From a virus, in IMG/VR virus record IMGVR_UViG_3300045454_000009, positions 1 to 30,339 of that record: a stretch of 30,339 nucleotides of DNA. The stretch is one strand, 5' to 3'. Under the pieces are notes generated by a model that made no database searches, was not told the origin of the DNA, and worked only from the letters and a program-made list of their open reading frames with translations. Of this stretch, positions 692-30,300 are shown piece by piece. Positions within the stretch are counted from its first letter, which is position 1; each line of letters starts with the position of its first letter. The position numbers were made by a program, and so were the translations under genes.

Positions 692-700
692 CGCGACGGG

Positions 701-728
701 CTGAGAACGCCAACAGACACGCGATTAT
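701..728 (+). promoter_or_regulatory. Phage-type promoter for the tail-fibre gene (predicted leaderless)
   Basis: A CTGAGA box at 701-706 is followed after 16 nt by GATTAT at 723-728, and the ATG of the fibre gene starts 6 nt later at 735. The same geometry occurs before the genes at 5328 and 6741. No Shine-Dalgarno precedes the ATG. The arrangement predicts transcription starting at or very near the A of the ATG. The boxes are read from the sequence; promoter function is inferred. Confidence 0.6.
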
Positions 729-734
729 GGCGTC

Positions 735-3608
735 ATGAGCCAACAAGGTCTGCGCCAAGCCAGCATCCGCGCTGTCACCGGGTCTGCGGAGACCTACGAG
801 GGCGATTGGCACCGGCTGTTCGACCTGGCCGACATTCCGGCCGGTCCGTTCAACGGGCGCATGCTGGCATGGATCAATATCAAGCTGTCGGCGGCCTACA
901 CGAACCTGGCGGAGGCGCAGCAATCGCTGGCTGACGCAAACGCCGCCTTCAATTTCGCGTCCATGGGCACGTTCGACGCCAGCACCTTCGACTACATCGT
1001 CACCGACGATAGCGAGCTGGCCGCTGTCATTGCGTTGGGTTCGGCGACGCTATCCGGCAAGCGCGTGGGCGTCATGGCGGGGACCTACACCACGCCTGAC
1101 TTCAACGGCCTGACGCCCGCCTCGACCTGTGAAATCGTAGGTGTGGGGACGCCGCGCTTTGAGCGGGCGATCATCCGTGCGTCGGGCAACCTGTCGTTTG
1201 ACGGGATCAAGTTCACGACCGCGCAATGGGATACGGCGAACGGCCCGTGCATCCGGCTTGGTCTTGAGATCGGCGACGTCACCCTGCGCAACTGCCAGCT
1301 ACGGGGCAACTGGGAAGGCGACATCGACTTCGCCTTCGATCCCACGGACCTGAGCGCGACGACCGCGAACGGGTTCTTCGTGGACAACCGCTACACGCAA
1401 TTTGCGGCGCTGTGGCCGACCGTCGATGGGTCGGGGACCATCACGGCCCTGGTGGCGTCGCGGCGGAACGTGGACCTGGCGGACGGCAACTACGCGGTCA
1501 TCTTCGATGGCAGCGCGGGCGGGGCGTCGGGTACGGGAGCGTCCGCGGACTTCGACGTCGTGAGCGGTGTCATCACGTCGATCAACAACCTTGTTGGCGG
1601 TTCTGGCTACGTCCAGTCGGGCGTCGGGCGCATCTGTAGCTGGACGGGCCAAGAGAAGGCCGGCGAATACTTCAAGTACGGCATCCAGGCCTACAACCCA
1701 GGCGGCGACGGCGGGCCGCCGAACATCACGGGGCAACTGACCATCGAGGACTGCACGTTCTCTCTGCTGGGCGAGGGCGTGAAGATCGGCGCATGGATGG
1801 CGAGCACGGGCCGCATGCAAATCCGCCGCAACACCTTCGATCTGATCTATCAGGACAGCGTATCCTTCGCCATCGGCCTCGCGCCGCCTGAGAACATCGA
1901 CGTCAGCTTCAATTTCCGAACCCGGCCGATCTTCTCCCCCGGCGATCCTGGCGACCCGCACGCGGACGTGGTGCAGGTCTTCGCCGACGACGACGTGACG
2001 ATCCCGTCACCGGAGATCACCGAAGGCCTGATCCCGATCGACATTTACGGTAACGTCGGGATCATCGGCGCCGCCCGCGGCCAGTTCCAGGGCGTCATGC
2101 TGACCGACATCCCGGCCGGCGATCCCGACACGGCCTTCACGGCGGGCGCGCTGGGCCTGGGTGTCACGGCGAACTTCTTCCTGATGAGGGGCCACGGCAA
2201 CGGTGTGTCATGCTCGGGCTCGCGCTGGCTGCCCTTCGCGGCGAATACGATCGTGGCCTGGGACACGGCCGAGAGTGGGAACACGATCGTCATCTCCAGC
2301 GACGCCTCGGTCTATCCGGGGACCATCGTCGCGAACAACATCAGCGAGGGCTATGCGGGCGCCTCGGACCCCGACAGCGACTTCCTGACCTGGCCGAACG
2401 TCACAGTGGATCGGGACGGCTCGCCGCTCAGCTATGCGACGGTCTTCGATGACCCCGACAGCCTGCCCGCGACGGTCGCGGCGGCGCAGACTGCCTACAC
2501 CCCCCTCGTGGCCTACGAAGGCAAGGGCGCGGTGGGACTCGTGGACTTCGCCGCCCAAACCATCGACCTGTCGCAGATGCCGACCATGACGTGGTTCCCG
2601 GTGGAAACGGGCGCGACGGTCGATACGGTTTACACGTCGGCAGCCTCTCGCATCCTGGGCGGGACGGCCAGTGTGACGATCACCCCGGGGACTGGCACGG
2701 AATGGCGTGTGGCCGACAACGAGGCTATGGACTCCAATCCGACGTCCTGGTCGTCGTCGGTGGCGACGGGCGATTATCGCGGCAAGTTCCTGCAACTGCG
2801 TCGGACGTCCAGCGCCAGCGGCTCCACGACGGTTTACGCAACCGCCGACCTCAACGGAACCGAGGCCAGCTTCTCGATCACCACGGCCAGCCTCGCCAGC
2901 TTCAGCGAGGTCAACAACGACAGCGCGGCTTACTCGGTTCGCACGGCGCCCACGCTGGAAAGCAGCCTGACGCGGTTCATTCTGGTGTTCCGCTATCGCG
3001 GGCCCACAACCCCGACGTCGAACATCCGCATCCTGGGCGGCGGAACCCCGGCGCAGTTCCAGATCTACAACCCGAGCGCCACGACCCTTCGGGGCCAACT
3101 CGGCAGTTCGACCATCTGGCAATATCGCGCCGATACGACGCCGGACGATGAGTGGCACACCCATTTCATCAAGGGCGACGTGCATCTTGGCGACACCGAC
3201 CTTTCGGCGCAGCAATGGTGGCTGGACGGGACGCTTCTCGGAAAAGTCGACCCGAGCGCCTTCGCCTCGGGATCGACCTTCACCACGGCGAACATCTTCT
3301 CCGGCGCGGGCCTCGGCATCTTTGCCGAAGGCGACGGGGCGTCCGTGGTCAACGGCGGCGACATGGCCTTCGTCTGGATGCATTGGGGCGACAACACGCT
3401 GACCATGCCGGATTTCAGCGACGCCGGCGTGCGCGACGGCTTCACGGCGGACAACATCAACCTGACGAACGGGTCGGGCGCGCTCGGCTACCAGCCGAAG
3501 ATTTTCCTCACCGGGGATGCGGCGGCCTGGAACGCAGGCCTATCGAACGGCGGCTCGCTCGGCGGCACGTTTACGAAGGGCGCGGGGACCTATATCGCCT
3601 CGACCTGA
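735..3608 (+). CDS. Tail fibre / receptor-binding protein with beta-helix-like middle and LamG-like C-terminus
   Basis: At 957 residues this is the largest rightward gene of the left part. Residues ~1-75 form a helical N-terminus that would anchor to the virion (repeated Ala/Gln-rich turns around LAEAQQSLADANAAFNF). From ~90 to ~560 short beta-strand/turn units resemble right-handed beta-helix phage spikes. About 600-720 looks like a small beta-sandwich. Residues ~730-957 resemble a concanavalin/LamG-type jelly-roll (FILVFRYRG, WWLDGTLLGKVD, IFLTGDAAAWNAG), common at the tips of phage fibres. It probably recognises or degrades a surface glycan. Chosen start: the ATG at 735, which sits exactly where the conserved promoter module predicts. 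Its 3' end overlaps the convergent PEP-CTERM gene by 38 bp. Confidence 0.75.
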   Translation: MSQQGLRQASIRAVTGSAETYEGDWHRLFDLADIPAGPFNGRMLAWINIKLSAAYTNLAEAQQSLADANAAFNFASMGTFDASTFDYIVTDDSELAAVIALGSATLSGKRVGVMAGTYTTPDFNGLTPASTCEIVGVGTPRFERAIIRASGNLSFDGIKFTTAQWDTANGPCIRLGLEIGDVTLRNCQLRGNWEGDIDFAFDPTDLSATTANGFFVDNRYTQFAALWPTVDGSGTITALVASRRNVDLADGNYAVIFDGSAGGASGTGASADFDVVSGVITSINNLVGGSGYVQSGVGRICSWTGQEKAGEYFKYGIQAYNPGGDGGPPNITGQLTIEDCTFSLLGEGVKIGAWMASTGRMQIRRNTFDLIYQDSVSFAIGLAPPENIDVSFNFRTRPIFSPGDPGDPHADVVQVFADDDVTIPSPEITEGLIPIDIYGNVGIIGAARGQFQGVMLTDIPAGDPDTAFTAGALGLGVTANFFLMRGHGNGVSCSGSRWLPFAANTIVAWDTAESGNTIVISSDASVYPGTIVANNISEGYAGASDPDSDFLTWPNVTVDRDGSPLSYATVFDDPDSLPATVAAAQTAYTPLVAYEGKGAVGLVDFAAQTIDLSQMPTMTWFPVETGATVDTVYTSAASRILGGTASVTITPGTGTEWRVADNEAMDSNPTSWSSSVATGDYRGKFLQLRRTSSASGSTTVYATADLNGTEASFSITTASLASFSEVNNDSAAYSVRTAPTLESSLTRFILVFRYRGPTTPTSNIRILGGGTPAQFQIYNPSATTLRGQLGSSTIWQYRADTTPDDEWHTHFIKGDVHLGDTDLSAQQWWLDGTLLGKVDPSAFASGSTFTTANIFSGAGLGIFAEGDGASVVNGGDMAFVWMHWGDNTLTMPDFSDAGVRDGFTADNINLTNGSGALGYQPKIFLTGDAAAWNAGLSNGGSLGGTFTKGAGTYIAST

Positions 3609-4116
3609 CCATGGCGCCCGCGCCGAAGAACCCGCCGATCAGCATGGCCCACGTCGAGGGCTCTGGGAGAACGCGCGGAATTTCCGTGACGCGGACGTGG
3701 TAGCTCACGCCGGATGGCTGATCGAAGAAGAACGCAAGATAGGCGTCAATGTCGTCGAAGCTGTAGTAGGTCGTAAGGCCGCGATCCGTGTGGCGGGTCC
3801 TGGCCCCAAACACCTTGAAGTGCGCGCCGTCAATTCGGCGCATGTGGTCGAAGCCAAAGAAGTCAAAGTCGTTGGCGTCGATCAGTGTTGGCCCGCGATA
3901 GGTGTAGTAAGCCCCCTGCGAATTGTGCCCCCGGTCCACTTGGATAGGGCGCTCGCCGAATGACGTCTCCAAAAGGTAGTGCTGGCGGTTGTCAGCGTCG
4001 AAGGTGAAGACCAGAACGTCGTCCGACGTGAAGCCGCTCTGGTCCAGAATGACGGCGGCGCTGGCGGGCGCGGCGCACATGACCGCAGCCCCCAACGCAG
4101 CGATGAAACGTCGCAT
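3571..4116 (-). CDS. Secreted PEP-CTERM (PEPxxWA-type) sorted protein
   Basis: The 181-residue product has a classic signal peptide (MRRF then a hydrophobic core, cleavage likely after PASA at residue 20). It ends with a PEP-CTERM sorting tail: PEPSTWAMLIGGFFGAGAMV at 151-170, then an Arg-rich end (RSRR). In known PEP-CTERM systems a host exosortase processes this tail so that the mature protein is exported, usually in bacteria that make exopolysaccharide. The mature domain is unrecognised, ~130 residues, rich in Asp/Phe/Tyr. The start at 4116 is preceded by GGAGGG at good spacing; an upstream in-frame ATG at 4146 is less likely. It lies on the strand opposite to the virion genes, so it is probably cargo (a moron) that alters the lysogen's surface. 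The PEP-CTERM identification is firm; the role is inferred. Confidence 0.85.
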   Translation of the reverse strand: MRRFIAALGAAVMCAAPASAAVILDQSGFTSDDVLVFTFDADNRQHYLLETSFGERPIQVDRGHNSQGAYYTYRGPTLIDANDFDFFGFDHMRRIDGAHFKVFGARTRHTDRGLTTYYSFDDIDAYLAFFFDQPSGVSYHVRVTEIPRVLPEPSTWAMLIGGFFGAGAMVRSRRYRSPRPS

Positions 4117-4157
4117 GGCTTGCCCTCCACAAGGGGGCGCAGCCAACTCCCGCTGAC

Positions 4158-4172
4158 GGGTTGCGTCAACCC
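4158..4172. repeat. Perfect inverted repeat upstream of the PEP-CTERM gene
   Basis: GGGTTG and CAACCC flank a 3-nt spacer. The element lies in the 78-nt gap between the stop of the leftward membrane-protein gene (4195) and the start of the PEP-CTERM gene (4116). It could be an operator, or a weak attenuator within the leftward transcript; no T-tract follows on either strand. Confidence 0.5.
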
Positions 4173-4194
4173 GCTACACGCGCGAGGCGAGAAT

Positions 4195-4482
4195 TCAGCC
4201 CGGCTTGCGCAAGGCGGAGAGGTCAGGCGCGCCGAATATCAGCCAGCCGATCAGGCCGATTAGGGCGGCGATGATGAAGAACGCGGTCATCAGGAGCGCG
4301 TCATCAAAGCCCTTGGCGTCGGTGTCGAGGATCGGGCGCCGCTCGCCTTCGAGAGTTGGACGGTCGTGGGCGTCACAGATCGCAGCGGCGCGGGCCTCTT
4401 CGGCGGTCTCGCCTTCGCCGTAGCCCTTGAGGCCGTCGCGGGCCTTGTGAGTCGCACGGTAGAGTTTTGGTTTGGTCTTCAT
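4195..4482 (-). CDS. Small membrane-anchored protein, 95 aa
   Basis: No family is recognised. The N-terminal ~60 residues are hydrophilic and charged (KLYRATHKARDGLKGYGEGE, then an alanine-rich helix). The C-terminus carries one clear membrane segment (LLMTAFFIIAALIGLIGWLI) followed by a short polar tail. The start at 4482 is preceded by GAGGG about 8 nt upstream; an in-frame ATG further upstream (4527) would run through the operator palindromes. It is the first leftward gene of the cargo block, 78 nt before the PEP-CTERM gene, and probably co-transcribed with it. It faces the ribbon-helix-helix gene across the shared regulatory gap. Confidence 0.75.
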   Translation of the reverse strand: MKTKPKLYRATHKARDGLKGYGEGETAEEARAAAICDAHDRPTLEGERRPILDTDAKGFDDALLMTAFFIIAALIGLIGWLIFGAPDLSALRKPG

Positions 4483-4497
4483 AGGCGGCCCTCTTTT

Positions 4498-4590
4498 CGT
4501 ATCTACGATTGAGCCGGTAACGTACATATGCTATCCCGTCAATAACGTGCATACGAAATAGGTGAGCGTTGACGGATATTCGTACATACG
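4498..4590. promoter_or_regulatory. Operator array: four CGTA-type palindromes between divergent genes
   Basis: Four 10-bp near-palindromes occur at 4498-4507 (CGTATCTACG), 4521-4530 (CGTACATATG), 4546-4555 (CGTGCATACG) and 4581-4590 (CGTACATACG). Three lie between the leftward start at 4482 and the rightward TTG start at 4569; the fourth is just inside the RHH frame. Arrays of short palindromes beside a small ribbon-helix-helix gene are typical autoregulatory operators, so the RHH product at 4569 is the likely ligand. The repeats are seen directly; the protein partner is inferred. Confidence 0.6.
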
Positions 4591-4778
4591 GCAAGGCCAC
4601 GGTGATGGGCCGCAAGAAGAAGTACGACGTGCGGATTACGCTTCCGCTCTCGGCCGAAATGGCGGCTCGACTTGACGCTGCCTTGAAGGCGAAAGAGGCG
4701 AGGGTGGACTACGTCCGCGACGCGATTGACGAGAAGCTGGCGCGGGACGAGGCGCAGCAGCGGAAGGTGGGGCGGTGA
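4569..4778 (+). CDS. Ribbon-helix-helix (CopG/Arc-like) DNA-binding protein
   Basis: The 69-residue product fits an RHH fold: a basic N-terminus (GRKKKY), a short strand VRITLPL at ~21-27, helix A at ~29-42 (EMAARLDAALKAK) and helix B at ~46-60 (VDYVRDAIDEKLARD). RHH proteins bind DNA as dimers through the strand and usually repress their own promoter. The TTG start at 4569 has AGGTGAG just upstream. An ATG at 4605 would give 57 residues, keep the whole RHH core and leave all four palindromes upstream of the gene, but its ribosome site is weak. The stop overlaps the next gene (GTGA), suggesting coupling. Helix B closely matches the C-terminus of that next protein. Confidence 0.75.
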   Translation: MTDIRTYGKATVMGRKKKYDVRITLPLSAEMAARLDAALKAKEARVDYVRDAIDEKLARDEAQQRKVGR

Positions 4779-5281
4779 CGGCGCCCGCACGGCTAACCGC
4801 TACCGAGTGCGTCTACGTCTTAGGCGTCGAGGGCGGCCCCTGCAAAGTGGGCCGCTCGGTCGAGCCGGAGGAGCGCGCTAGGCAGTTGCAGATCAAGTAC
4901 GGGTCCCGGTTCATTCTGCTGGGCGTCTCGCGTATGGCCCAAGTGAAGGCGATCTCAGCCGAGCGATATGCGCACTGGCTGCTGAGAGATCGGCACCTGT
5001 CGGGCGAATGGTTTGACGCGACACGCGAGGAAGCTCTCGCCGCCGTCAACAAGGCGCTGACTGACGAGATGGACCCGGAATACGTGCTCCCCTCGCTGGA
5101 CGAGATCGCGCTATCAGACGGCATGGCAGAGCGGATCGAGACTCGGTTCCCAAGAGGCACCCGCGAGCGGCTGCGAAAAGTCTTGGGCAGTACCGGGCAC
5201 GCGCAGTTCATCCGCGACGCCATCGAAGAGAAGTTGGCCCGCGAGGAAGCCACCCAAAGGGCCACTCCTGACGCTGAGTAG
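4775..5281 (+). CDS. T5orf172/GIY-YIG-like domain protein with C-terminal RHH-like segment
   Basis: The 168-residue product begins with a domain like the T5orf172 branch of the GIY-YIG superfamily: a strand VYVLGV at 13-18, KVGRS at 24-28 (Arg27), R/Q-rich helix to ~40, then Glu63, His67 and GEWF at 77-80. These positions match conserved ones in the family. After a linker (~100-115) the C-terminus (FIRDAIEEKLAREEATQR, 145-162) nearly duplicates helix B of the preceding RHH protein. This suggests a nuclease-like domain tethered to a DNA-binding or dimerisation module. GTG start overlaps the upstream stop (GTGA) and is preceded by GGAAGG/GGTGGGG. Catalytic activity is not certain from sequence alone. 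Confidence 0.7.
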   Translation: MTAPARLTATECVYVLGVEGGPCKVGRSVEPEERARQLQIKYGSRFILLGVSRMAQVKAISAERYAHWLLRDRHLSGEWFDATREEALAAVNKALTDEMDPEYVLPSLDEIALSDGMAERIETRFPRGTRERLRKVLGSTGHAQFIRDAIEEKLAREEATQRATPDAE

Positions 5282-5293
5282 CGACGCACCCCG

Positions 5294-5321
5294 CTGAGAA
5301 CGCGCAAGGCGGACCGATACT
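5294..5321 (+). promoter_or_regulatory. Phage-type promoter for the second fibre gene (predicted leaderless)
   Basis: CTGAGA at 5294-5299, 16 nt, GATACT at 5316-5321, then 6 nt to the ATG at 5328: the same geometry as at 701-735. The first ten bases (CTGAGAACGC) are identical to that site. No Shine-Dalgarno precedes the ATG. Confidence 0.6.
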
Positions 5322-5327
5322 CCGCCC

Positions 5328-5996
5328 ATGGCCGATAAGGACTATTCCCAGCTCACGTCGCTCGGATCGTTCACAGCGACGGACCTTTTCGCGGCCTACC
5401 CGACAGGCGGCCCGCTGAAAAAGGTGACCTACGCCGACTTTACGGCGGCGGTCGCGTCCTCGATCTCGTCGACCTACCTGACCGTCGCCAGCAATCTGAG
5501 TGATCTGGCCAGTGCGTCCTCGGCCCGCGCCAATCTGGGCCTGGGGTCGGCGGCGGTCCTGGCTGCGTCTGCGGTCTTTCAGGTGGCCAACAACGGGTCG
5601 GAGGTCGCCAACGCGACCACGTTCCGCACGAACATCGGGGCTGCGGCCTCGAATGCACCCACAATCACCGGGGGCATGACGTTCTCAGGGTCGACCACGG
5701 CGAACGTCCAGGCGGTGGCGTCCACTTCCATCGACGTAAGCGTGGCGGAGTGGTTCACCAAGTCGATCAGCGGCAACACCACCTTCACCTTCGACAATCC
5801 GACCGCGTCAAAGGGGATGGGATTCATCCTTGAGCTGACGATCAGTTCAAGCGCGGTTCCGACCTGGCCAGCCAGTGTCGATTGGGCCGGGGGCTCTGCG
5901 CCCTCGCTTGGGGACGGTAAGCACGTCCTCGGCTTCATCACCTTCGACGGCGGAACCAACTGGCTGGGCTTCCTAGGGGGCCGTGCGTTCTCGTGA
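5328..5996 (+). CDS. Tail fibre / virion appendage protein with repeat segment
   Basis: The 222-residue product starts with a short N-terminal module (YSQLTSLGSFTATDLFAAYP). A shaft-like stretch follows with the fibre-type repeat phrases NLSDLASASSARANLGLGSA and ATTFRTNIGAAAS, common in collar and shaft regions of trimeric phage fibres. The C-terminal ~100 residues are beta-rich and end in FITFDGGTNWLGFLGGRAFS, resembling small phage tip domains. The stop overlaps the GTG of the glycine-rich adhesin gene (GTGA), so the two are translationally coupled and probably form one appendage. Its promoter predicts a leaderless mRNA. Confidence 0.75.
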   Translation: MADKDYSQLTSLGSFTATDLFAAYPTGGPLKKVTYADFTAAVASSISSTYLTVASNLSDLASASSARANLGLGSAAVLAASAVFQVANNGSEVANATTFRTNIGAAASNAPTITGGMTFSGSTTANVQAVASTSIDVSVAEWFTKSISGNTTFTFDNPTASKGMGFILELTISSSAVPTWPASVDWAGGSAPSLGDGKHVLGFITFDGGTNWLGFLGGRAFS

Positions 5997-6703
5997 GCGT
6001 CCTTCGTCTTCTCGCGCTGTTCAGCGGACTGCTACAGGTCGATTACCTTGTGGTGGCAGGTGGCGGCGGCGGGGGCACAGCCGTTCCGCTAAGCCTCGGT
6101 GAGGGCGGCGGTGGCGGGGCGGGTGGCCTCAAGACCGGACCCGCAGGCCTAGCGCGCGGCAACATCTACGCCATCACGGTCGGGGCCGGAGGCGCAATCC
6201 AGAACAACGGTGGCGCCAGCGCGATTGCGGGCGTCGTCAGCACGACCGGCGGCGGCGCGGGGGGAACTCCACCAGACGACGGCGAGGCGGGCGGATCGGG
6301 CGGCGGTGGCGCGAACGGTGCGGTGACCACGGGCGGCGCGGGCGTGCCCGGCGAGGGCTATGACGGCGGTGCGGGGCCGGGTGGTGGTGGTGGTGCTGGC
6401 GGGGCAGCGCCGGGCGCCCCATCCCTGGCGGGTGGCGTGGGTGTGGCCAGTTCCATTTCAGGGTCCAGTGTCACCTATGCAGTCGGCGGCGCGGGTGCAG
6501 GCGGTTCGGCGTCCGCGACACCGGGGTCAGGCGGGAATGGCGGGGTCGGAGGCGACGAATACGCGGGGTCTGCCGGCCAGGACGGCATCGTCATCATCCG
6601 CTACCTCGGAGCGCAGAAGGCGACGGGCGGCACGATCACGTCGTCTGGTGGGTACACCATCCACACGTTCACCTCGGACGGCAATTTCGAGGTCACGGGC
6701 TAA
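5993..6703 (+). CDS. Glycine-rich phage tail adhesin
   Basis: The 236-residue protein is dominated by long glycine-rich runs. It has the signature YLVVAGGGGGG near the N-terminus and a C-terminal cap DGIVIIRYLG plus GGYTIHTFTSDGNFEVTG. These flanking elements are characteristic of Gly-rich phage adhesins, where polyglycine type II helices form a receptor-binding tip. It begins at a GTG that overlaps the stop of the upstream fibre gene. The N-terminus is hydrophobic (VLRLLALFSGLLQ) but lacks a convincing signal-peptide cleavage site; it may instead pack on the fibre. Confidence 0.8.
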   Translation: MSVLRLLALFSGLLQVDYLVVAGGGGGGTAVPLSLGEGGGGGAGGLKTGPAGLARGNIYAITVGAGGAIQNNGGASAIAGVVSTTGGGAGGTPPDDGEAGGSGGGGANGAVTTGGAGVPGEGYDGGAGPGGGGGAGGAAPGAPSLAGGVGVASSISGSSVTYAVGGAGAGGSASATPGSGGNGGVGGDEYAGSAGQDGIVIIRYLGAQKATGGTITSSGGYTIHTFTSDGNFEVTG

Positions 6704-6706
6704 CTG

Positions 6707-6734
6707 CTGAGTAGGGCGAAAGGACCGCTATCGT
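6707..6734 (+). promoter_or_regulatory. Phage-type promoter for the 79-aa gene (predicted leaderless)
   Basis: CTGAGT at 6707-6712, 16 nt, TATCGT at 6729-6734, then 6 nt to the ATG at 6741. It has the same spacing as the modules at 701 and 5294, although the boxes differ at several bases. No Shine-Dalgarno is present before the ATG. Confidence 0.5.
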
Positions 6735-6740
6735 CTCGCC

Positions 6741-6980
6741 ATGGACCGCTCACCATACCTGACGCAGGCCCTCCAGAGCATGAGCGCGGCCCCGGCCCCG
6801 CAATCGGCTCCCGGCCTCGACCCGCAAGCCATCGCAGCGGCGGTGCGCAAGCGTGACCAGTGGAAGGCCGCCAACCCCGGCCAGAGCTACACGGCGCACA
6901 GCATGGGGCAGGCCGGTCAGTCCCTCATGGCCGCCCCCGGACGTATGGTTGACGGCTTCAAGGGCATGTTTGGGCGCTGA
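6741..6980 (+). CDS. Small hypothetical phage protein, 79 aa
   Basis: Unrecognised. The sequence has an Ala/Pro/Ser-rich N-terminal half and a basic central helix (AIAAAVRKRDQWKAANPGQS), ending in a Gly/Met-rich tail (GRMVDGFKGMFGR). There is no membrane segment. It stands alone between two copies of the promoter module and has no ribosome-binding site, so it is probably leaderless. Small basic proteins at this place in podovirus genomes are often minor head or assembly factors, but I have no domain evidence. Confidence 0.7.
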   Translation: MDRSPYLTQALQSMSAAPAPQSAPGLDPQAIAAAVRKRDQWKAANPGQSYTAHSMGQAGQSLMAAPGRMVDGFKGMFGR

Positions 6981-6994
6981 CCAACGGCGCGAAC

Positions 6995-7022
6995 CTGAGA
7001 AACCCTCTCCCGGCCTGATCAT
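6995..7022 (+). promoter_or_regulatory. Phage-type promoter upstream of the capsid operon
   Basis: CTGAGA at 6995-7000, 16 nt, GATCAT at 7017-7022. By the geometry of the other modules, transcription would begin near 7029. That gives an 11-nt leader that is little more than a Shine-Dalgarno (AGGAGAG) before the ATG at 7040. The stretch AACCTGAGAAACCC is shared exactly with the module at 10029. Confidence 0.55.
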
Positions 7023-7039
7023 GGGGTCAGGAGAGCTAT

Positions 7040-7351
7040 ATGCCGCGCGCCAGTTTCCGAGTTTGCCGAGTTTGCCGGGGTCTTCATGACCTCGCCGAAC
7101 CGTGGCCGGAAGCCTGCGAGGCCCACTATCCGAACGCTTTCGGCGCAGGCCCCATGGTCATCGGAGATTCTATCGCCCCGTTCCGGTCCATGGCCGACGG
7201 GAAGATTTACGAATCCAAGAGCCAGTACCGGGCCGACCTGAAAGCGCGCGGCCTCGTGGAAGTCGGGAACGAGAAGGTGACGGCCAAGCCCGCCGCCCTC
7301 CCGCCCGTCCGCGAAACTCTCCGACAAACCCGTCAACAGCTGGGGTTCTGA
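7040..7351 (+). CDS. Small phage protein with Cys-pair N-terminus, 103 aa
   Basis: The N-terminus contains a possible metal-binding cluster (CRVCRGLHDLAEPWPEACEA, a CxxC plus a later Cys and His). The C-terminal half contains the phrase MADGKIYESKSQYRADLKAR followed by GLVEVGNEKV, a pattern I associate with small proteins encoded near scaffold/capsid genes in podoviruses. Function is not known. It has a good ribosome site and is 7 nt upstream of the scaffold gene, so the two share a transcript. Confidence 0.75.
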   Translation: MPRASFRVCRVCRGLHDLAEPWPEACEAHYPNAFGAGPMVIGDSIAPFRSMADGKIYESKSQYRADLKARGLVEVGNEKVTAKPAALPPVRETLRQTRQQLGF

Positions 7352-7358
7352 GGAGAGC

Positions 7359-8585
7359 ATGGCCGATCATCCGAGTGTCCGCGAAAGCCTTGAGGCGACG
7401 ATGGCGTCCCTCAAGGATACCGAAACCGACCCGCTGACCCCGGAGCCGGAAACCGGCGCTGCGCCCGATGCCGGCGACGCCCCGGAGCCCAAGGCCACGA
7501 GCGCCCCGGCTGATCCCCTGGCCGCGAAGGCTGCGGAGATCGAGCCAGACGCCAACGGTCGCCTGCGTGACCCGACAGGCAAGTTTGCGCCCAAAACGGC
7601 GCCCGACCCCAACACCTCGGAGGGCGCGAAGCCGGCCGATGCCGCCGCCCCGACCGAAGACCAGAAATCCGAGCCCGCAACGCCGGCGCCCACGGAAGCC
7701 CAGGGAACTGAGCCGATCCGTGTCCCGCCGTCTTTGCCCGCAGCTGTGAAGGCGAAGTTCGCAACCCTCGACAAGGACGTCCAAGCGGCGTTCACCAAGC
7801 TTGAGGACAGCGTTCAGACCTCCAAGGCCGAGTGGGGAAAGAAAGGCGAACGGCTCAACCGCTTCGATGAGATTCTTGGGCCACGCCGAGAACAGCTCGC
7901 GATCCGCGGCATTGATGAGTTCCAGGCCATCCAGACGCTGTTCGCGGCGCAGGACTTGCTGGACCGCAATCCCGTGAACGGGCTTCTTGAGCTTGCCCGG
8001 TCCTACGGAGTGGCCCCTGCGCAGTTGGCGCAGGCTCTTGGACAGTCGCCTTCCGGCGGCCACTTCCAGGGAGGCCCGGGGCAGTCGAACCCCGGCGCGG
8101 TCCCGGATCTGGCGAGCGCCCTGAAGCCGGTCCTTGAGCCGCTGCAACGGCAGGTCCAGACCCTTCAGCAACAGATCGAATCCGAGAAGCAGACTTCCGC
8201 CCAAAGCATGGTCGAGGAGTTCGCGTCACGGTCTGAGAACATGTACTTCGAGAATGTCCGTGAGGACGTCGCGGTGCTGATCGAGACCGGAAGGGCCAAG
8301 ACCCTTCAGGACGCCTACGACATGGCCTGCTGGATGAACCCGGAAATCCGCGAACTCCGCCAGGCCGAAACGGTCAAGGCTGCGAGCGATGCGGCGGCCC
8401 GGGCACAAGCCGAAGCGGCCAAGAAGGCCGAAGCGGCGGCGCGGGAGAAAGCAAGATCGGCAGCGACTGCGGCGGGGTCTGTCACCGGGGCACCGGCGCC
8501 GGGCGCACAAGCGCCGGCCGGGCCTCCAGGTTCCGTCCGCGACACCCTGGTAGCCGCCATGCGAGAGCACGGCATGCAGGTGTGA
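7359..8585 (+). CDS. Capsid scaffolding protein
   Basis: The 408-residue product lies immediately upstream of the major capsid gene, as scaffolds do. It has a disordered Ala/Pro/Glu-rich N-terminal ~130 residues, a helical middle beginning VPPSLPAAVKAKFATLDKDV, and a Gln-rich helix (LKPVLEPLQRQVQTLQQQIE). A long alanine/lysine coiled-coil follows near 345-375, and the tail is Gly/Pro-rich. This composition is typical of podovirus scaffolds, which assist procapsid assembly and then leave. The start has GAGGAG 4 nt upstream. No protease motif was seen. Confidence 0.8.
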   Translation: MADHPSVRESLEATMASLKDTETDPLTPEPETGAAPDAGDAPEPKATSAPADPLAAKAAEIEPDANGRLRDPTGKFAPKTAPDPNTSEGAKPADAAAPTEDQKSEPATPAPTEAQGTEPIRVPPSLPAAVKAKFATLDKDVQAAFTKLEDSVQTSKAEWGKKGERLNRFDEILGPRREQLAIRGIDEFQAIQTLFAAQDLLDRNPVNGLLELARSYGVAPAQLAQALGQSPSGGHFQGGPGQSNPGAVPDLASALKPVLEPLQRQVQTLQQQIESEKQTSAQSMVEEFASRSENMYFENVREDVAVLIETGRAKTLQDAYDMACWMNPEIRELRQAETVKAASDAAARAQAEAAKKAEAAAREKARSAATAAGSVTGAPAPGAQAPAGPPGSVRDTLVAAMREHGMQV

Positions 8586-8622
8586 TCGCCCAGCGTCCCT
8601 GAGGGGACATGGAGCGTGACAG

Positions 8623-9594
8623 ATGGCCTCTCCCGGCCTTTCCGAAATCGTCACGACCACCCTGCGCAACCGTAGCGGGGTGATCGCTGACAACATGTCG
8701 AAGAACAACGCGATCCTCATGCGTCTGTCGAAGAGGGGCAAGGTCAAGCCCGTCTCCGGCGGTCGGACGATCGTGCAAGAGCTGAGCTACGCCGAGAACT
8801 CGACCTTCCAGCGCTACTCCGGCTACGAGACCCTGAACGTCAGCCCGTCTGACGTCATCTCGGCTGCCGAATTCGACTGGAAGCAGGCCTCGGTCGCCGT
8901 GACCATCAGTGGTCTGGAGCAAGCCCAGAACTCCGGCCCCGACGCGCTGCTCGACCTGCTCGACAGCCGCATCGAGGTCGCTGAGAAGACGATGCAGAAC
9001 AACCTTTCCGAGGACATGTACTCGGACGGGACGGCGTCGTCGGGCAAGCAGATCGGCGGTCTTCAGCTCCTGGTGGCCGACACTGTGTCCTCGGGCACGG
9101 TTGGCGGCATCAACCAGGGGACCTACACCTTCTGGCGCAACCAGACGTTCCACGCCACGACCGAGATTTCCTCGGCTGTGAGCGCCGCGAACATCCAGCG
9201 CTGCATGAACACCCTCTACCTGCGGTGCATGCGCCAGTCGGACAAGACCGACCTGATCATGGCCGACACCAACTACTACCAGTTCTACTGGGCGTCGTTG
9301 CAGGCCATCCAGCGCATCACCTCTGACGAGATGGCGTCCGCGGGCTTTACGAGCCTGAAGTTCATGAACGCTGACGTTGTCGCTGACGGCGGCATCGGCG
9401 GCGGTTGCCCCAGCAACCACATGTACTTTCTTAACACGGACTACCTCTTCTGGCGCCCGCACCGGGACCGGAACATGGTGCCGCTCGACACGGTCCGGTC
9501 GCTGAACCAGGACGCCACCGTGCAGCTGATCATCTGGATGGGGAACATGACCGCATCCAACCGTCAGCTTCAGGGCGTGATCTACCAGACCTAA
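8623..9594 (+). CDS. Major capsid protein
   Basis: The 323-residue product follows the scaffold gene and has the expected length for a podovirus major capsid protein. The N-terminus (LSEIVTTTLRNRSGVIADNM, then NNAILMRL) is characteristic of a podovirus capsid group assumed to have the HK97 fold. An E-loop-like region lies around 45-80 (SGGRTIVQELSYAENSTFQR). A long central 'spine'-like helix region (DALLDLLDSRIEVAEKTMQN) and a C-terminal beta-rich part ending in GNMTASNRQLQGVIYQT follow. It assembles the icosahedral head. GGAG lies 9 nt upstream of the ATG. Family membership is judged by eye. Confidence 0.85.
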   Translation: MASPGLSEIVTTTLRNRSGVIADNMSKNNAILMRLSKRGKVKPVSGGRTIVQELSYAENSTFQRYSGYETLNVSPSDVISAAEFDWKQASVAVTISGLEQAQNSGPDALLDLLDSRIEVAEKTMQNNLSEDMYSDGTASSGKQIGGLQLLVADTVSSGTVGGINQGTYTFWRNQTFHATTEISSAVSAANIQRCMNTLYLRCMRQSDKTDLIMADTNYYQFYWASLQAIQRITSDEMASAGFTSLKFMNADVVADGGIGGGCPSNHMYFLNTDYLFWRPHRDRNMVPLDTVRSLNQDATVQLIIWMGNMTASNRQLQGVIYQT

Positions 9595-9613
9595 GCGTCG
9601 GCTCTGAACCAGT

Positions 9614-9639
9614 CCCGCGGTTGCGTGATGCGCCGCGGG
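9614..9639 (+). terminator. Hairpin between capsid and decoration genes (possible partial terminator or attenuator)
   Basis: CCCGCGG (9614-9620) and CCGCGGG (9633-9639) can form a 7-bp GC stem with a 12-nt loop. No T-tract follows, so it would be a pause, RNA-processing or mRNA-stability element rather than a full terminator. Its place just after the capsid stop suggests tuning of capsid versus downstream expression. Confidence 0.35.
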
Positions 9640-9673
9640 GCTACCGCTCAAACTGAACAAGGAGGGCCATCCC

Positions 9674-9967
9674 ATGGCCGCCAATACTTCCGCAGAGGTG
9701 TTCAGCGTCGACCCGCTCCTGGGCTTCGACGTTGGCGAAGTGTCCTCGACCCCGTCTCAGCGTCTCAAGACGAAGTTCACGGGATCGGATGGATACGTCT
9801 ACATGTACGTCCAGGCCAACGAGGCGATTGGTTCCGTCGGAACCGTTGTGATCACCTCGGCCGGCTCGGCTTCGACCGACTCCGGGTCGGCGGGCTGGAC
9901 CGCGAATGCTCCCGGCGGCGCTGCCGCAGGTGAGTATTTCTGGGCGCGTCGCACGTCGCTCGCCTAA
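9674..9967 (+). CDS. Probable capsid decoration or head-associated protein, 97 aa
   Basis: The gene directly follows the major capsid gene and has a very strong ribosome site (AAGGAGG), so high expression is expected. The product is small and beta-rich (YVYMYVQANEAIGSVGTVVI), with Gly/Ser/Ala-rich turns and an aromatic C-terminus (GEYFWARRTSLA). Position, size and strong translation fit a decoration or cement protein, but no family is recognised. The strong terminator 20 nt downstream ends the capsid transcript here. Confidence 0.6.
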   Translation: MAANTSAEVFSVDPLLGFDVGEVSSTPSQRLKTKFTGSDGYVYMYVQANEAIGSVGTVVITSAGSASTDSGSAGWTANAPGGAAAGEYFWARRTSLA

Positions 9968-9986
9968 GCGCGAACGGCACAGATCG

Positions 9987-10014
9987 GGGCGGGGTCTTCG
10001 GGCCTCGCCCTTTT
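9987..10014 (+). terminator. Strong intrinsic terminator ending the capsid operon
   Basis: A 10-bp stem (GGGCGGGGTC with GGCCTCGCCC, one G-T pair) closes a TTCG tetraloop at 9997-10000 and is followed directly by TTTT. It lies 20 nt after the decoration-protein stop and 15 nt before the next promoter module, so it marks a clean transcription-unit boundary. Confidence 0.85.
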
Positions 10015-10028
10015 CCGTGGGCGCAAAC

Positions 10029-10056
10029 CTGAGAAACCCCCGCGCGGGCGCAACAT
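10029..10056 (+). promoter_or_regulatory. Phage-type promoter for the connector/ejection operon
   Basis: CTGAGA at 10029-10034, 16 nt, CAACAT at 10051-10056. The -10-like box is the weakest of the five. Upstream flank and the bases after the -35-like box (AACCTGAGAAACCC) are identical to the copy at 6993-7006. The predicted start near 10063 gives a ~24-nt leader containing a small hairpin (AGCTTG, GG, CAAGCT) before the ATG at 10087. Confidence 0.5.
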
Positions 10057-10086
10057 GCTCTCGAAGCTTGGGCAAGCTGAGAGCAG

Positions 10087-10449
10087 ATGAGCACCATCAA
10101 CGGTCATGGGGCCAAGCCGCCCCCCGAGGAACCCGCCGCAGAGATTGCGCGGTGGGTCTACGAAGCGAACCTTGAAGAGGGTGACGCCGCCTGGGCGGAC
10201 CTGTCGGATCCGAACCGCGAAGCCCTGACCGACTACGCCCGCGTCTACATCGGGGCTCACGTCCAGTGGCTGTCACAGACCGGCTATCGGATCATCTCGC
10301 CCGACGCGGTGGAGCGCCCGACGTCGCAGGAACAGGCGCTGGCGATGGTGCAGGTCGCGAAGGAATTCTTCGACGCACAGAAGCGCAAGGGGAAGCTGGT
10401 CGGGGCTGTGGCGCCGACGAAGCTGATCCTGCCGAAAGGGGTGCATTGA
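10087..10449 (+). CDS. Hypothetical phage protein, 120 aa
   Basis: This is the first gene of the long operon after the terminator. The soluble, mostly helical product has a Pro-rich N-terminus. A central segment contains EIARWVYEANLEEGDAAWAD and REALTDYARVYIGAHVQWLS, and a lysine-rich helix (AKEFFDAQKRKGKLV) lies near the end. No domain is recognised. Its stop overlaps the next start (TGATG), so translation is coupled to the small membrane protein that follows. Confidence 0.75.
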   Translation: MSTINGHGAKPPPEEPAAEIARWVYEANLEEGDAAWADLSDPNREALTDYARVYIGAHVQWLSQTGYRIISPDAVERPTSQEQALAMVQVAKEFFDAQKRKGKLVGAVAPTKLILPKGVH

Positions 10450-10828: not shown

Positions 10829-11010
10829 GCAGCGTTCAAGACGAGGTGGTCATGTGGCGCGGGCGCTTGGTGTCAGAGATGACGCGAGACGAGTTGGCGG
10901 CGGCTTTCCAACAGCTGGCGAGGATTCATCGCGACCAAAAGGAGGCGGCGGAAGAGCATTTTACCACGTTCCGACGCTTCCGGGAGGCCAGAATGAGCGG
11001 CCCGCTATGA
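10825..11010 (+). CDS. Hypothetical phage protein, 61 aa
   Basis: A short, highly charged helical protein (TRDELAAAFQQLARIHRDQK, then EEHFTTFRRFREAR) starting at an ATGA overlap with the upstream gene and ending at an ATGA overlap with the glycosyltransferase gene. It probably forms a small coiled coil. No family is recognised. Confidence 0.65.
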   Translation: MSSVQDEVVMWRGRLVSEMTRDELAAAFQQLARIHRDQKEAAEEHFTTFRRFREARMSGPL

Positions 11011-12593
11011 GCAGCGCCCCAGCCCGCGACTCGCGATCCGACACCATTGAGGCCGGAGGGTGCGCGCCCCCGATCCTCACCGAGACCCCCATGCGGGTGA
11101 ACATCGTCTGCGTGAACGTCGATGCGTACTACGACATGGAATATGTCGAAGTGCTCTTTGACATGGTCCTGCGCAACGCCAGCCGCACGACGCACGAACT
11201 GGCCTTCTGGTGCATCACCGACCGGCCAGACGAGTTGCCCAAGGGCGTGAACCCGATCCTGTCTGACCCAAACCTTCCGGGGTGGTGGCAGAAGCTCTAC
11301 TGTTTCTCGCCCGACATGCCCTGGCAGGAAGGCGAGCGGGTCATTCAACTTGACCTTGATATCGCGGTCACCGGGCGGCTTGAAGACCTCCTCGACACCA
11401 AGGGGATCATCCGCGACTGGCATTGGGAAGGCGCGAAGAACACCTCCGTCATGTCGTGGGACCACGGCGAGCACCGGGGCGCATGGGAGCATTTCAGCCG
11501 GTCATTCCTCGATTGGAACCCGGGGCCGCTGATCCCCAAGGCGTGGCTTCCGTCGCACGCCAAGAATGCCGGCGACATGGAATACCTCATGTACGCATCG
11601 GCCATGGGGTGGGACCCGGACCCGTGGGACCACTACCCGGACCCATGGTTCCCGTCGTACCGCAGTTGTCACGCATGGCCGGCGGAAGGCTCAAAGGCGG
11701 TCATCTTCCACGGTCGGCCGAAGCCGCACGAGATCACCGATGGCTGGGTGCCGAATGTCTGGAAGGTCGGCGGCTTCACGTCGCTTCCCGTCATGGGTGG
11801 GGCCAATGTCAGCACCGAACACCTGCTGACCAACGTGCGGTCCGCCGTCCAGCGCGACCTTGAATGGTTCACCGGCTTTGGCCCGCACAATGGTCGTGCG
11901 GTTCTCGTGGCGGGCGGCCCGTCGGCAAGGGAGCGGATCTCCGAAATCCGGGCGCACTACAAGCGCGGGGCCAAGGTCATCACAGTAAATAACGCCTGGC
12001 GGATGATGGCCGAGGCGGGGATCAAGCCGCATGCCCACGTCATGCTGGACGCGAGGCCGGAGAACGCCGACTTCGTGAAGGACGCCCCGGACGGCGTTCG
12101 CTACCTGATCGCCAGCCAGTGCCACCCGGATGTGTTCGACGCCCTGGCCGGTAAGGAAGTCGTGGTCTGGCACAACGGCTTTGGCGACAATGCGGAAATG
12201 AAGGAAGCGCTCGCCCCCTGGTGGGGTGAGGGACCGAACCAGAAGCCCTGCGTCCTCGTGCCGGGCGGGGGGACGGTGGGCCTCCGCACGCTCTGGCTCC
12301 TGACCTTCTCCGGCTTCCGCACGGTCCATGTGTACGGCATGGACTCCAGCTACGCCGACGACGGCAAGCATCACGCCTATGCGCAGGCGCTCAACGACAC
12401 CGACCAGACGATTGAAGTGGTCATGGGGGGCAAGCGCTACCGGGCCGCCCTCTGGATGGTCAGGCAGGCGAACGAATTCCGGGAGACGTGGCGCGCGCTG
12501 AAGGACGAGGGCGTGACCGTCCACGTCCACGGAAGCGGCCTGATCCCCGATATGGCCAAGCGCCTTCGGTCTGACGAGAGGGCCGCCGCATGA
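11007..12593 (+). CDS. Glycosyltransferase-like / DUF115 fusion protein
   Basis: The 528-residue product appears to have two domains. Residues ~29-260 look like a GT-A glycosyltransferase: MRVNIVCVNVDAYYDMEYVE at the start, and VIQLDLDIAV with a DLD metal/nucleotide-sugar motif at 116-118. Residues ~295-500 match the DUF115 (MAF/MptE-like) pattern: VLVAGGPSARE, VITVNNAWRMM, PHAHVMLDARPENADFV and a late GMDSSYADD. MAF-type DUF115 proteins transfer nonulosonic acids to flagellin. It probably sugar-modifies a virion or host surface protein. The start at 11007 couples to the upstream stop; an ATG at 11091 begins right at the conserved domain and is an alternative. An FkbM methyltransferase follows with a 4-nt overlap. 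Confidence 0.8.
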   Translation: MSSAPARDSRSDTIEAGGCAPPILTETPMRVNIVCVNVDAYYDMEYVEVLFDMVLRNASRTTHELAFWCITDRPDELPKGVNPILSDPNLPGWWQKLYCFSPDMPWQEGERVIQLDLDIAVTGRLEDLLDTKGIIRDWHWEGAKNTSVMSWDHGEHRGAWEHFSRSFLDWNPGPLIPKAWLPSHAKNAGDMEYLMYASAMGWDPDPWDHYPDPWFPSYRSCHAWPAEGSKAVIFHGRPKPHEITDGWVPNVWKVGGFTSLPVMGGANVSTEHLLTNVRSAVQRDLEWFTGFGPHNGRAVLVAGGPSARERISEIRAHYKRGAKVITVNNAWRMMAEAGIKPHAHVMLDARPENADFVKDAPDGVRYLIASQCHPDVFDALAGKEVVVWHNGFGDNAEMKEALAPWWGEGPNQKPCVLVPGGGTVGLRTLWLLTFSGFRTVHVYGMDSSYADDGKHHAYAQALNDTDQTIEVVMGGKRYRAALWMVRQANEFRETWRALKDEGVTVHVHGSGLIPDMAKRLRSDERAAA

Positions 12594-13234
12594 AGCCGAT
12601 TGTCCAGCATGACGGGGTGTGGTGGCCGGAAGACGACGTGACCGCCCGGACCATTGTCGGCGGGGACTGCCTGTCGGACGTGCGGGAGTTCCTGACCCAT
12701 GTGCCCGAACGGGACGTGGTGATCCAGGCGGGCGGGAACGTGGGCCTTTACCCCGCCGCCCTGGCCGACCACTTCAGCATGGTCGCCACCTTCGAGCCCG
12801 ACCCGACCAATTGGGAGTGCCTGCAGCGGAACGTGAAGGCCCGCGACCCTCTCCGCCGCGTCGTGGCGACGCAGGCCGGCCTCGGAGCCGAAGTCGGGTT
12901 CTGCGCCCCGCACGAGGTCCACAAGAACAACTGCGCCGCCCATCGGGTCGACTACGGGACCGGCGATGTTCCGGCGACCACCATTGACGCGCTCAACCTC
13001 GCCAAGTGCTCCGCAATCTGGCTGGACATCGAAGGCGGGGAACACTTCGCCCTGATCGGCGGGGCCAAGACCATTGAGCGGTTCAATCCGACCATCGTGA
13101 TCGAGGACAAGGGCCTCGAAACCACCTTCTACGGCGTTCCGCGCGGCGCGATGCACGGGTGGCTTGCCGAGCGCGGATACCAGCCTGTCGCCCGTCTTGG
13201 GCGCTGGGACACCGTTTTCAGGAGAGCGAGATGA
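12590..13234 (+). CDS. FkbM-family SAM-dependent methyltransferase
   Basis: The 214-residue product carries a class-I methyltransferase glycine motif (VVIQAGGNVGLYPAALA, near 42-58) and an acidic motif II (VATFEPDPTNWECLQRNV). It also has the FkbM-type late segment (ATTIDALN, then IWLDIEGGEHFALIGGA). FkbM enzymes O-methylate sugars or small molecules and are often next to glycosyltransferases. The coupling (ATGA overlap) to the GT/DUF115 gene suggests it methylates the transferred sugar. The usual Asp of the first motif is replaced by Gln (IQAGGN), so its SAM binding may differ slightly. Confidence 0.82.
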   Translation: MKPIVQHDGVWWPEDDVTARTIVGGDCLSDVREFLTHVPERDVVIQAGGNVGLYPAALADHFSMVATFEPDPTNWECLQRNVKARDPLRRVVATQAGLGAEVGFCAPHEVHKNNCAAHRVDYGTGDVPATTIDALNLAKCSAIWLDIEGGEHFALIGGAKTIERFNPTIVIEDKGLETTFYGVPRGAMHGWLAERGYQPVARLGRWDTVFRRAR

Positions 13235-13499: not shown

Positions 13500-14078
13500 A
13501 TGTCCTTCACCGACGCACCCGAGTTCGACACCTCCGCCCGCGACCGCGACGGCGCCATCCCCCGGTTCTTCATGGACACCATCCAGGACAAGGCCCGGTC
13601 CGAAGCCGAGGGCGTGCCCCGCTTCATCGACGTGGAGATGGTCGAGGTCATCATTCCCGGTGACCGGCTCAACACCCCGACGTTCATCGTCGGCGAGCGC
13701 CACCGGAAGCGCTGGCCGAAGCAATACGCCGCGTTCAAGGCCGACCAGGAAGCCCCGGTTGACGGAACGCCCATCGACCAACTGCCCGGCGTCACCAAGA
13801 GCCAAGTTCAGGAACTGGCCTATTTCCACGTCCGCACCATCGAGGCGCTGGCCAACCTGTCCGACGAGCAGATGGGCAAGGTCATGCCCATGGGCGGCCG
13901 GCAGATGCGCGAGAAGGCCCAGCGGTGGGTCAAGAACGCAGAGGGCGACGCCGGTAACGAACGGCTGGCCGCTGAGAACCGCCGTCTGGAGGACAATATG
14001 ACCCTCATGAAGCAGCAGATGGAAGACATGCAGCGCCAGATGGCGGAGATGGCGACGCAGGCGAAGGGCGCGGACTGA
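13500..14078 (+). CDS. Conserved podovirus structural-region protein with C-terminal coiled coil, 192 aa
   Basis: The N-terminal ~90 residues contain a conserved-looking segment (FIDVEMVEVIIPGDRLNTPT, then RHRKRWPKQYAAFK). A helix-hairpin-like region follows (IDQLPGVTKSQVQELAYFHV, then TIEALANLSDEQM). The last ~45 residues are a strong heptad coiled coil (ERLAAENRRLEDNMTLMKQQ). The middle resembles the 'gvt..Q...L...gi.Tv..La' motif of helix-hairpin-helix proteins. Such proteins sit between capsid and adaptor genes in related phages with unknown role. The start at 13500 (AGG a few nt upstream) fits the gene spacing better than upstream ATGs in the same frame. Confidence 0.75.
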   Translation: MSFTDAPEFDTSARDRDGAIPRFFMDTIQDKARSEAEGVPRFIDVEMVEVIIPGDRLNTPTFIVGERHRKRWPKQYAAFKADQEAPVDGTPIDQLPGVTKSQVQELAYFHVRTIEALANLSDEQMGKVMPMGGRQMREKAQRWVKNAEGDAGNERLAAENRRLEDNMTLMKQQMEDMQRQMAEMATQAKGAD

Positions 14079-16867: not shown

Positions 16868-17388
16868 GGGTGCTCTGGGGCCACAGCGACGAAGTCTCGT
16901 TCTGGGTTGGCTGGCAGATACCCTACGTCCGCAGGCGGCTTGAGCGCGATCCGGCCAGCCTTCCATTTGGCCAGTGTCAGGCGGCCGGGGTCCTCAACAA
17001 CGACGGCGAGCTGATCGCGGGCGTGGTCTTTCACAACTACGATCCGGACTGCCCAAGCTTCGAGGTGTCGTTCGCGGCGACCAGTGCGAAGTGGCTGACG
17101 CGGCCCATCATATGCGAGTTACTGAGATACCCCTTCGATCAGATAGGCTGTCGTCGGTTGACCGCTGTAACACCGCGTAAAGCGACGAGCGCGCGGCGGT
17201 TCCTCGACAAGTTCGGCTTCCGAAGAGAAGGGGTCGCGACGGAAGGGTTCGGGGACGATGACGCGATCATCTCCCGGCTTCTGAAGCGCGAATGGCTGGC
17301 GACCAAATGGGTCGTGGATAGCCCCTCTGACCGACGCGAGGCCCGCGAGAGGCAGAATGGGAAAGCCCAAAGCTCCAAAGCCGCCTGA
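16864..17388 (+). CDS. GNAT-family acetyltransferase-like phage protein
   Basis: The 174-residue product has a GNAT-like outline: N-terminal strand/helix, AAGVLNNDGELIAGVVFHNY, then a central strand (FEVSFAAT) and the acetyl-CoA-side region CRRLTAVTPRKATSARRFLD with KFGFRREGVATEGFG. The phrase 'v...N..a.rfl.klGFr.EG' is standard for GNATs. Such genes are frequently placed beside the tail-hub gene in podoviruses and their substrate is unknown. ATGA start overlaps the hub gene. Its 3' end overlaps the next gene by 32 nt in another frame, so the C-terminal Arg/Ser-rich tail is encoded over the S74-protein start. Confidence 0.82.
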   Translation: MRVLWGHSDEVSFWVGWQIPYVRRRLERDPASLPFGQCQAAGVLNNDGELIAGVVFHNYDPDCPSFEVSFAATSAKWLTRPIICELLRYPFDQIGCRRLTAVTPRKATSARRFLDKFGFRREGVATEGFGDDDAIISRLLKREWLATKWVVDSPSDRREARERQNGKAQSSKAA

Positions 17389-30142: not shown

Positions 30143-30185
30143 ATTGTTTGCGGGGTTTTGGATTCGTTCTCGGGGGTTTTCCGGT

Positions 30186-30216: not shown

Positions 30217-30225
30217 TAGGAAGAA

Positions 30226-30300
<75 letters not shown>

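Follow-up and report, generated by a model that had tools for sequence, protein, structure and literature searches.

Candidate late promoters, often placed directly at the start codon, in a clade of Mx8-like temperate phages

RESULTS AND DISCUSSION

Promoter-like sites in the viral sequence

Virus record IMGVR_UViG_3300045454_000009 is 30.3 kb in length and probably represents a genome fragment; its complete sequence (30,339 nt) is referred to here as the window. It carries short two-box sites, CTGAG followed at a fixed distance by a second box, which an initial annotation had considered to be phage promoters giving rise to leaderless mRNAs. All five sites which had been listed were found at their reported coordinates (Table 1).

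Table 1. Putative late promoters and a terminator-like hairpin in the window. The score is that of a matrix trained without the window.
Feature	Position	Strand	Components	Score
Putative late promoter 1	693..737	+	GC 693-694; CTGAG 701-705; -10 GATTAT 723-728; N6; ATG 735-737	24.2
Putative late promoter 2	5286..5330	+	GC 5286-5287; CTGAG 5294-5298; -10 GATACT 5316-5321; N6; ATG 5328	28.2 (top of window)
Putative late promoter 3	6699..6743	+	GC 6699-6700; CTGAG 6707-6711; -10 TATCGT 6729-6734; N6; ATG 6741	7.3 (weak)
Putative late promoter 4	6987..7042	+	GC 6987-6988; CTGAG 6995-6999; -10 GATCAT 7017-7022; predicted +1 7029; ATG 7040	25.5
Terminator-like hairpin	9986..10012 (about)	+	between gene 9674-9967 and promoter 5; fold z-score -3.4	
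Putative late promoter 5	10021..10089	+	GC 10021-10022; CTGAG 10029-10033; -10 CAACAT 10051-10056; predicted +1 10063; 24-nt leader; ATG 10087	22.7
Probable intragenic late promoter	13964..13999	+	GC-N6-CTGAG(13972)-N17-CAATAT in gene 13500-14078	17.6
Probable intragenic late promoter	17114..17149	+	GC-N6-CTGAG(17122)-N17-TAGGCT in gene 16864-17388	9.7 only

Promoter 1 precedes a gene in a fibre-like position (735-3608, 957 aa, MSQQGLRQASIR), promoter 2 a gene of the tail-fibre type (5328-5996, MADKDYSQLTS), and promoter 3 the gene 6741-6980. At these three sites, exactly 6 nt (N6) separate the second box from the ATG, and a leaderless mRNA is predicted for each gene. When N6-ATG was added to the search pattern, three forward matches were obtained, with none in reverse and none in the backwards control. 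Promoter 4 stands before a head-gene unit (genes 7040, 7359, 8623, and 9674, with 8623 coding for the major head protein). Its predicted 11-nt leader (AGGAGAGCTAT), which the initial annotation had called a Shine-Dalgarno sequence, has this sequence (AGGAG) at its very start, and AGGAG is conserved at or beside the equivalent point in relatives (G001 641, G005 3888, and G006 10048).

Modules are found at the place equivalent to promoter 5 in G002, G004, G005, G006, G007, and G008. The initial annotation had placed a strong terminator ahead of this site. The hairpin is indeed strong; its T tail is short, however, and it was not listed by the terminator scan. The leader region ahead of gene 10087 (10057-10084) contains a dyad around CTTGGG(G), and the leaders at the equivalent place in G002, G004, G005, and G006 again have CTTGGGG.

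The pattern CTGAGW-N16-NATNNT has five matches in the window, where 0.13 would be expected, namely at 701, 5294, 6707, and 6995 on the plus strand and at 5661-5688 on the minus strand. The site at 10029 has the second box CAACAT, which lies outside NATNNT and fits the looser NANNNT. The best four places found in the window by the matrix are 5294, 6995, 701, and 10029, followed by 13972; the low score of the site at 6707 is due to its unusual TATCGT box. At 5/5 sites, a GC dinucleotide is located exactly 8 nt before CTGAG. The initial annotation did not mention this upstream GC. It also did not cover the near-invariance of CTGAG, the proposed regulator, the other boxes present in distant relatives, or the two intragenic sites which are described below.

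The element in related phages

The major head protein of the window (8623-9594) was assigned to phrog_9953 (1e-120), and its annotated relatives include phage Mx8 (53% identity). A total of 80 related viral loci were fetched. The clade set used for counting consists of nine close records (the window, L004-L010, and L034, with their full contigs), which sum up to 250 kb and for which genes were called. As these genomes are related, the element counts given below do not represent independent events.

In a word search that was not guided by any motif and covered the DNA upstream of gene starts preceded by an intergenic gap, CTGAG at exactly -34 gave the strongest positional signal (15/97 genes in the nine records). 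A logo was built from 48 intergenic seed sites of the form CTGAG-N17-NANNNT. It shows G and C at positions -8 and -7 before CTGAG in 47/48 sites even though these had not been seeded, and it favours GC at -6/-5 and AA at +5/+6. The full element thus reads GC-N6-CTGAG-N17-NANNNT. Upon inspection by eye, no clear palindrome or direct repeat was seen in the box.

The full pattern was found 59 times in forward and never in reverse orientation in the nine records, compared to 7 forward and 5 reverse matches in 1.26 Mb from 84 more distant loci. An equal frequency inside genes and before them had been named beforehand as the outcome that would speak against promoters. Instead, 47 of the 59 copies are intergenic, with intergenic bases making up only 12% of the DNA, and most of the 12 "genic" copies either overlap the end of a gene or show conservation of the DNA itself. 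The spacing is rigid: of 41 forward copies of GCGC-N4-CTGAG alone, 37 have the -10 box at N17, and few boxes occur at other spacings. When a 17-base version was scanned over the whole viral collection, it was encountered in five contigs, all of them clade members. Genome G004 (38 kb) has every site at 23-36 kb, the half which codes for the virion, and none at 1-22 kb. The strand bias, the fixed distance between the boxes, and the restriction to the virion-gene half strongly support the view that the sites act as late promoters in a clade of temperate Mx8-like phages.

Such a repeat might also serve as a signal for recombination or packaging, or mark the boundary of a cassette, and be devoid of promoter function, as it is found at cassette borders and the fibre cassettes vary among relatives. 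The flanks are unconserved, however; only promoter-like positions are kept, at a fixed distance to the -10 box and often to the ATG, and the repeat also occurs inside conserved genes. We consider this explanation very improbable.

What reads the element

In an enlarged set of 14 records, CTGAG occurs 73 times in the context of the element in forward and not once in reverse orientation. Each of its one-mismatch variants is found at most 5 times in forward orientation, and the commoner ones are about as frequent in reverse. Such near-invariance is more readily explained by a dedicated reader than by plain sigma70.

The second box has the features of a sigma70 -10 box (A at position 2, T at position 6, and the appropriate distance), reading NA(T)N(A/C)T at N17 with 7 nt to the predicted +1. 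One might thus assume ordinary RpoD promoters, with CTGAGA being a degenerate -35 hexamer (4/6 matches to TTGACA) that functions without a dedicated activator in a host that tolerates leaderless mRNAs. Both the -34 position and the spacing are typical of RpoD promoters. A sigma70 -35 box would resemble TTGAC(A) and tolerate variants, whereas here the host consensus and all one-mismatch variants of CTGAG are avoided (TTGAG 3, CTGAC 1, CTGAG 73). Also, the upstream GC at -42/-41 falls outside the -35 hexamer, a scan with the sigma70 consensus misses the sites, and distant relatives hold the geometry but swap the box. Caulobacteraceae genome G015 showed no excess of the pattern (9 hits vs 9 in the control), and a host promoter class was rejected for this reason. 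On balance, ordinary RpoD promoters are rather unlikely.

An alternative sigma factor, either phage- or host-encoded, e.g., of the extracytoplasmic function (ECF) type, would equally be expected to read two boxes with a rigid spacer of 16-17 nt, and the Caulobacter ECF motif of SigT (GGAAC-N16-TGCT) is also found at -34. Against this, sigma region 2 (PF04542) is absent from the ten phage records, which are fragments, while the 10 control genomes were positive; region-4-like hits were under the cut-off and belong to other helix-turn-helix proteins. The sigma70-like -10 box and the missing excess in the host genome likewise disagree, and an alternative sigma factor is quite unlikely. A sigma54 promoter was rejected, as the logo has no GG/GC pair 10 nt apart (-24/-12) and the box lies at -42 to -30.

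Predicted leaderless transcripts

For 72 distinct sites, the distance to the first long ATG frame downstream was determined. It is N6 in 25 cases, N7 in 4, N5 in 1, and N8-N10 in none, while all other frames start at a distance of at least 11 nt. By one loose definition, a Shine-Dalgarno sequence precedes 3/25 of the N6 genes but 12/22 of the leadered genes. The N6 arrangement is kept before orthologues in diverged phages. This applies to the MADKDYSQLTS gene (window 5328; G005, G006, G007, and L120; MADRDYSQLTS in G008), the MDxxxYLxQAL-type gene (window 6741; at the same place in G001, G003, and G008), the portal gene (G006, G008, L116, and L120), and the MxQQGxRQASxR gene (window 735; G007 and L120).

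At the N6 sites, the distance from the C of CTGAG to the ATG is 34 nt. For comparison, 93% of the RpoD motifs of C. crescentus start 34-37 nt ahead of the mapped transcript start (PMC4287350). The geometry at the N6 peak thus places the predicted +1 on the start codon of genes which mostly lack a Shine-Dalgarno sequence. It is strongly supported that about 35-40% of the sites would have their +1 at the A of the ATG or adjacent to it and give rise to a leaderless mRNA; the initial annotation had proposed leaderless transcripts for three of the window sites. Efficient translation of such mRNAs is established in this host group, with 375 leaderless mRNAs reported for C. crescentus, their translation efficiency being about equal to that of leadered ones (PMC4117421). 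The phage case stands apart from the leaderless genes of Caulobacter and other alphaproteobacteria: the arrangement recurs systematically, goes with a single class of phage promoter, and is conserved ahead of virion genes.

Copies inside genes

The full pattern is matched seven times in the window, always in forward orientation, and two of the matches are within genes (13972 and 17122, see Table 1). An initial reading as coding coincidences is contradicted by codon choice in relatives. In gene 13500-14078, the Ala codon is GCT (11% of Ala codons) in 7/7 clade members, while GCC or GCG is found in nonclade phages that share the Ala-Glu-Asn residues. In gene 16864-17388, AGA/AGG (8% of Arg codons) is used in 4/4 clade members having that Arg, and others have CGN or another residue. 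Because these rare codons are kept across the clade, selection seems to act on the DNA; within the limits of a comparison among related genomes, both copies are thus probably internal late promoters.

A candidate winged-helix regulator

Shortly before the terminase gene, G003, G004, G007, and G008 code for a protein of 139-168 aa, which has weak OmpR-type matches in 2/4 cases. When viral contigs were searched with this protein, ten loci were retrieved, all of which have the module on the plus strand, and six of these contigs had not been found via the head protein. Among 49 records, the protein is present in 9 of the 11 which carry modules; the other two (the window and G005) do not contain that genome region. 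None of the 38 other Mx8-like records has a set of modules; scattered single hits are found there on either strand, and G014 has two hits, both in reverse orientation. The nine records with both module and candidate protein have no further protein common to all of them apart from terminase and portal, although some of these records hold few early genes.

The fold model of the protein is a winged helix (mean predicted local distance difference test score 82, core >90). Its nearest structural matches are MarR/MepR (1.7e-4), and ToxR was also found (7e-3). The Trans_reg_C profile (PF00486), with a cut-off of 26.2 bits, gave at best 23.1 bits (8e-5, L086) and 13.8-14.5 bits within the CTGAG clade. 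No useful match was obtained against PHROGs and NCBIfam, and none above the cut-off in Pfam. The protein thus resembles OmpR/PhoB-type (Trans_reg_C) and MarR-type regulators in predicted fold, weak profile similarity, and structural matches, but differs by having no receiver domain and by falling outside the families of these collections. In G006 (313-1158, L101), the protein is a fusion of the winged-helix domain with an N-terminal domain whose function is unknown.

Based on its cooccurrence with the module, the winged-helix protein is our leading candidate for an activator of these promoters. The activator could be another phage protein, either GcrA-like or another of the OmpR-like type, with the winged-helix protein serving a different role. 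The early regions encode a GcrA-like protein (G007 4670-5233, L103; PF07750, 1.4e-19) and a further OmpR-like protein (G007 5230-5637). These are not present in all module-bearing records, a point weakened by the incompleteness of several records. GcrA is tied to GANTC sites, and the box has none. That one of these proteins is the activator appears unlikely. The phage GcrA-like protein belongs to a family of host cell-cycle regulators, and a shorter GcrA-like protein is encoded at G004 16866-17135.

Divergent boxes in distant carriers

Two carriers of divergent versions of the winged-helix protein, few as such cases are, keep the geometry and change the box. G016 (L058) has GCCTTTCC-CTTGG-N17-CATCAT-N6-ATG twice, and the 13-base box occurs once more, at 5115, in a leadered copy. 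G015 (L085) has GC-N6-CTAAG-N17-NANNNT, followed by ATG at N6 (5163) or N7 (8824); similar CTAAG copies occur at 322, there without the GC, and at 8335 (with N16). In the recognition-helix region, proteins of the CTGAG group have a conserved Glu and an insertion of 3-4 residues, both of which are absent from the CTTGG and CTAAG carriers. A de novo search for modules in the other distant carriers (G443, G435, G049, G302, and L086) gave nothing convincing.

G015 is a metagenome-assembled genome with two loci of interest (L085 322-8850 and L132 4803-6843). The CTAAG-module phage genes lie beside nonphage genes on one contig, and a winged-helix and terminase pair is on another. This possibly represents a scattered, domesticated prophage. 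The sites of prophage L116 are identical to those in G203, a genome from the same order as this Caulobacteraceae assembly, and for this prophage at least, the host order is thus Caulobacterales.

Other features of the window

Two genes without modules (3571-4482, minus strand) are inserted between late units and are probable accessory (moron) genes. Within the head/tail gene order, a large glycosyltransferase-like protein and an FkbM-methyltransferase-like protein were recognized by eye (11007-13234); these are conserved in relatives. The right end has a minus-strand block with a gene for a 3'-phosphoadenosine-5'-phosphosulfate (PAPS) reductase domain protein (29249-30286, PF01507, 5e-5) and a tRNA-Thr (30226-30300, minus strand), which may mark a prophage attachment site or host flank.

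Proposed mechanism

We propose that the sites are late promoters with a phage-specific bipartite box, GC(GC)-N4-CTGAG(AA), at about -42 to -30. The box would be bound by the winged-helix protein, expressed from the gene just before terminase, which in turn would hold the host RNA polymerase (RpoD) in lieu of the normal -35 contact. A rigid N17 spacer after CTGAG leads to a sigma70-type -10 box, (C/G)A-T-N-(A/C)-T, which would set +1 seven bases on, in many cases yielding leaderless mRNAs. At leadered sites, the short leader would carry, or even start with, a Shine-Dalgarno sequence. Once the winged-helix protein is made, the late units would fire together. Since the promoter is joined to the start codon in a single unit of 45 bp, an exchange of fibre and accessory genes as self-contained cassettes is conceivable, if speculative. 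On the sequence comparisons presented here, we assign this mechanism a probability of about 70%.

Several observations weigh against it. The window itself is a fragment which does not include the winged-helix gene, and the small number of early genes in some records affects the cooccurrence analysis. Since the module-bearing phages are relatives of each other, cooccurrence of protein and box is in part due to shared ancestry. Palindromes are the usual targets of MarR-like folds, whereas the box is asymmetric. No clear purine preference was seen at the predicted +1 of leadered sites, and because the base preference there is weak, the placement of +1 is derived mainly from geometry. The regulator gene of G015 is found on a separate contig, beside a terminase, and the CTTGG and CTAAG cases come from one genome each.

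Comparison with known systems

The promoters would belong to a known kind, the activator-type phage late promoters. What is unusual is that a large minority is built onto the start codon. The closest mechanism would be sigma appropriation at T4 middle promoters, where the MotA box replaces the -35 element (PMC7403470). As there, a phage box appears to take the place of -35, a sigma70-like -10 box is kept, and the phage box would be read by a small DNA-binding protein which the phage encodes. In contrast to T4, we find another box, a temperate phage, late genes, and many predicted starts on the ATG; the winged-helix protein was unrelated in the searches done, and no AsiA-like partner was identified.

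The nearest biological neighbour may be the GafY/GafZ system of the Caulobacter gene transfer agent, in which RpoD acts at a degenerate -35, GafY binds far upstream, and integration host factor is needed (PMC11150451). Both systems would rely on a dedicated activator of virion genes which acts via RpoD. The GafY system has one main promoter and anti-termination, whereas here many short promoters have the box in the -35 region.

Promoters of T7-type phage polymerases similarly occur in many copies before phage gene groups. They are compact, extending from about -17 to +6, unlike the two boxes 16-17 nt apart described here. The T7-type polymerase profile (PF00940) had no match in the phage records, and the control set was silent as well.

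Implications

In a wider view, to which we give slightly better than even odds, temperate Caulobacterales phages have a late regulon controlled by an undescribed family of winged-helix activators. These would co-evolve with their box (CTGAG, CTTGG, or CTAAG) and replace -35 recognition at many promoters fused to start codons; a large share of the virion genes would be leaderless, and promoter-plus-gene cassettes would be shuffled. Nothing relevant was retrieved when the literature was searched for late promoters in phages of Caulobacter or of the Mx8-like type, and, the domesticated gene transfer agent excepted, no published account was found of late-gene switching in temperate phages of Caulobacter relatives. 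The element described here provides a late-promoter code at base resolution together with a single candidate activator and a bacterial order with a prophage-bearing isolate. Since the boxes differ while the geometry is unchanged, the recognition code between activator and box is open to direct test. With virion proteins being in high demand, these phages may also offer a natural system in which leaderless translation can be studied under such conditions.

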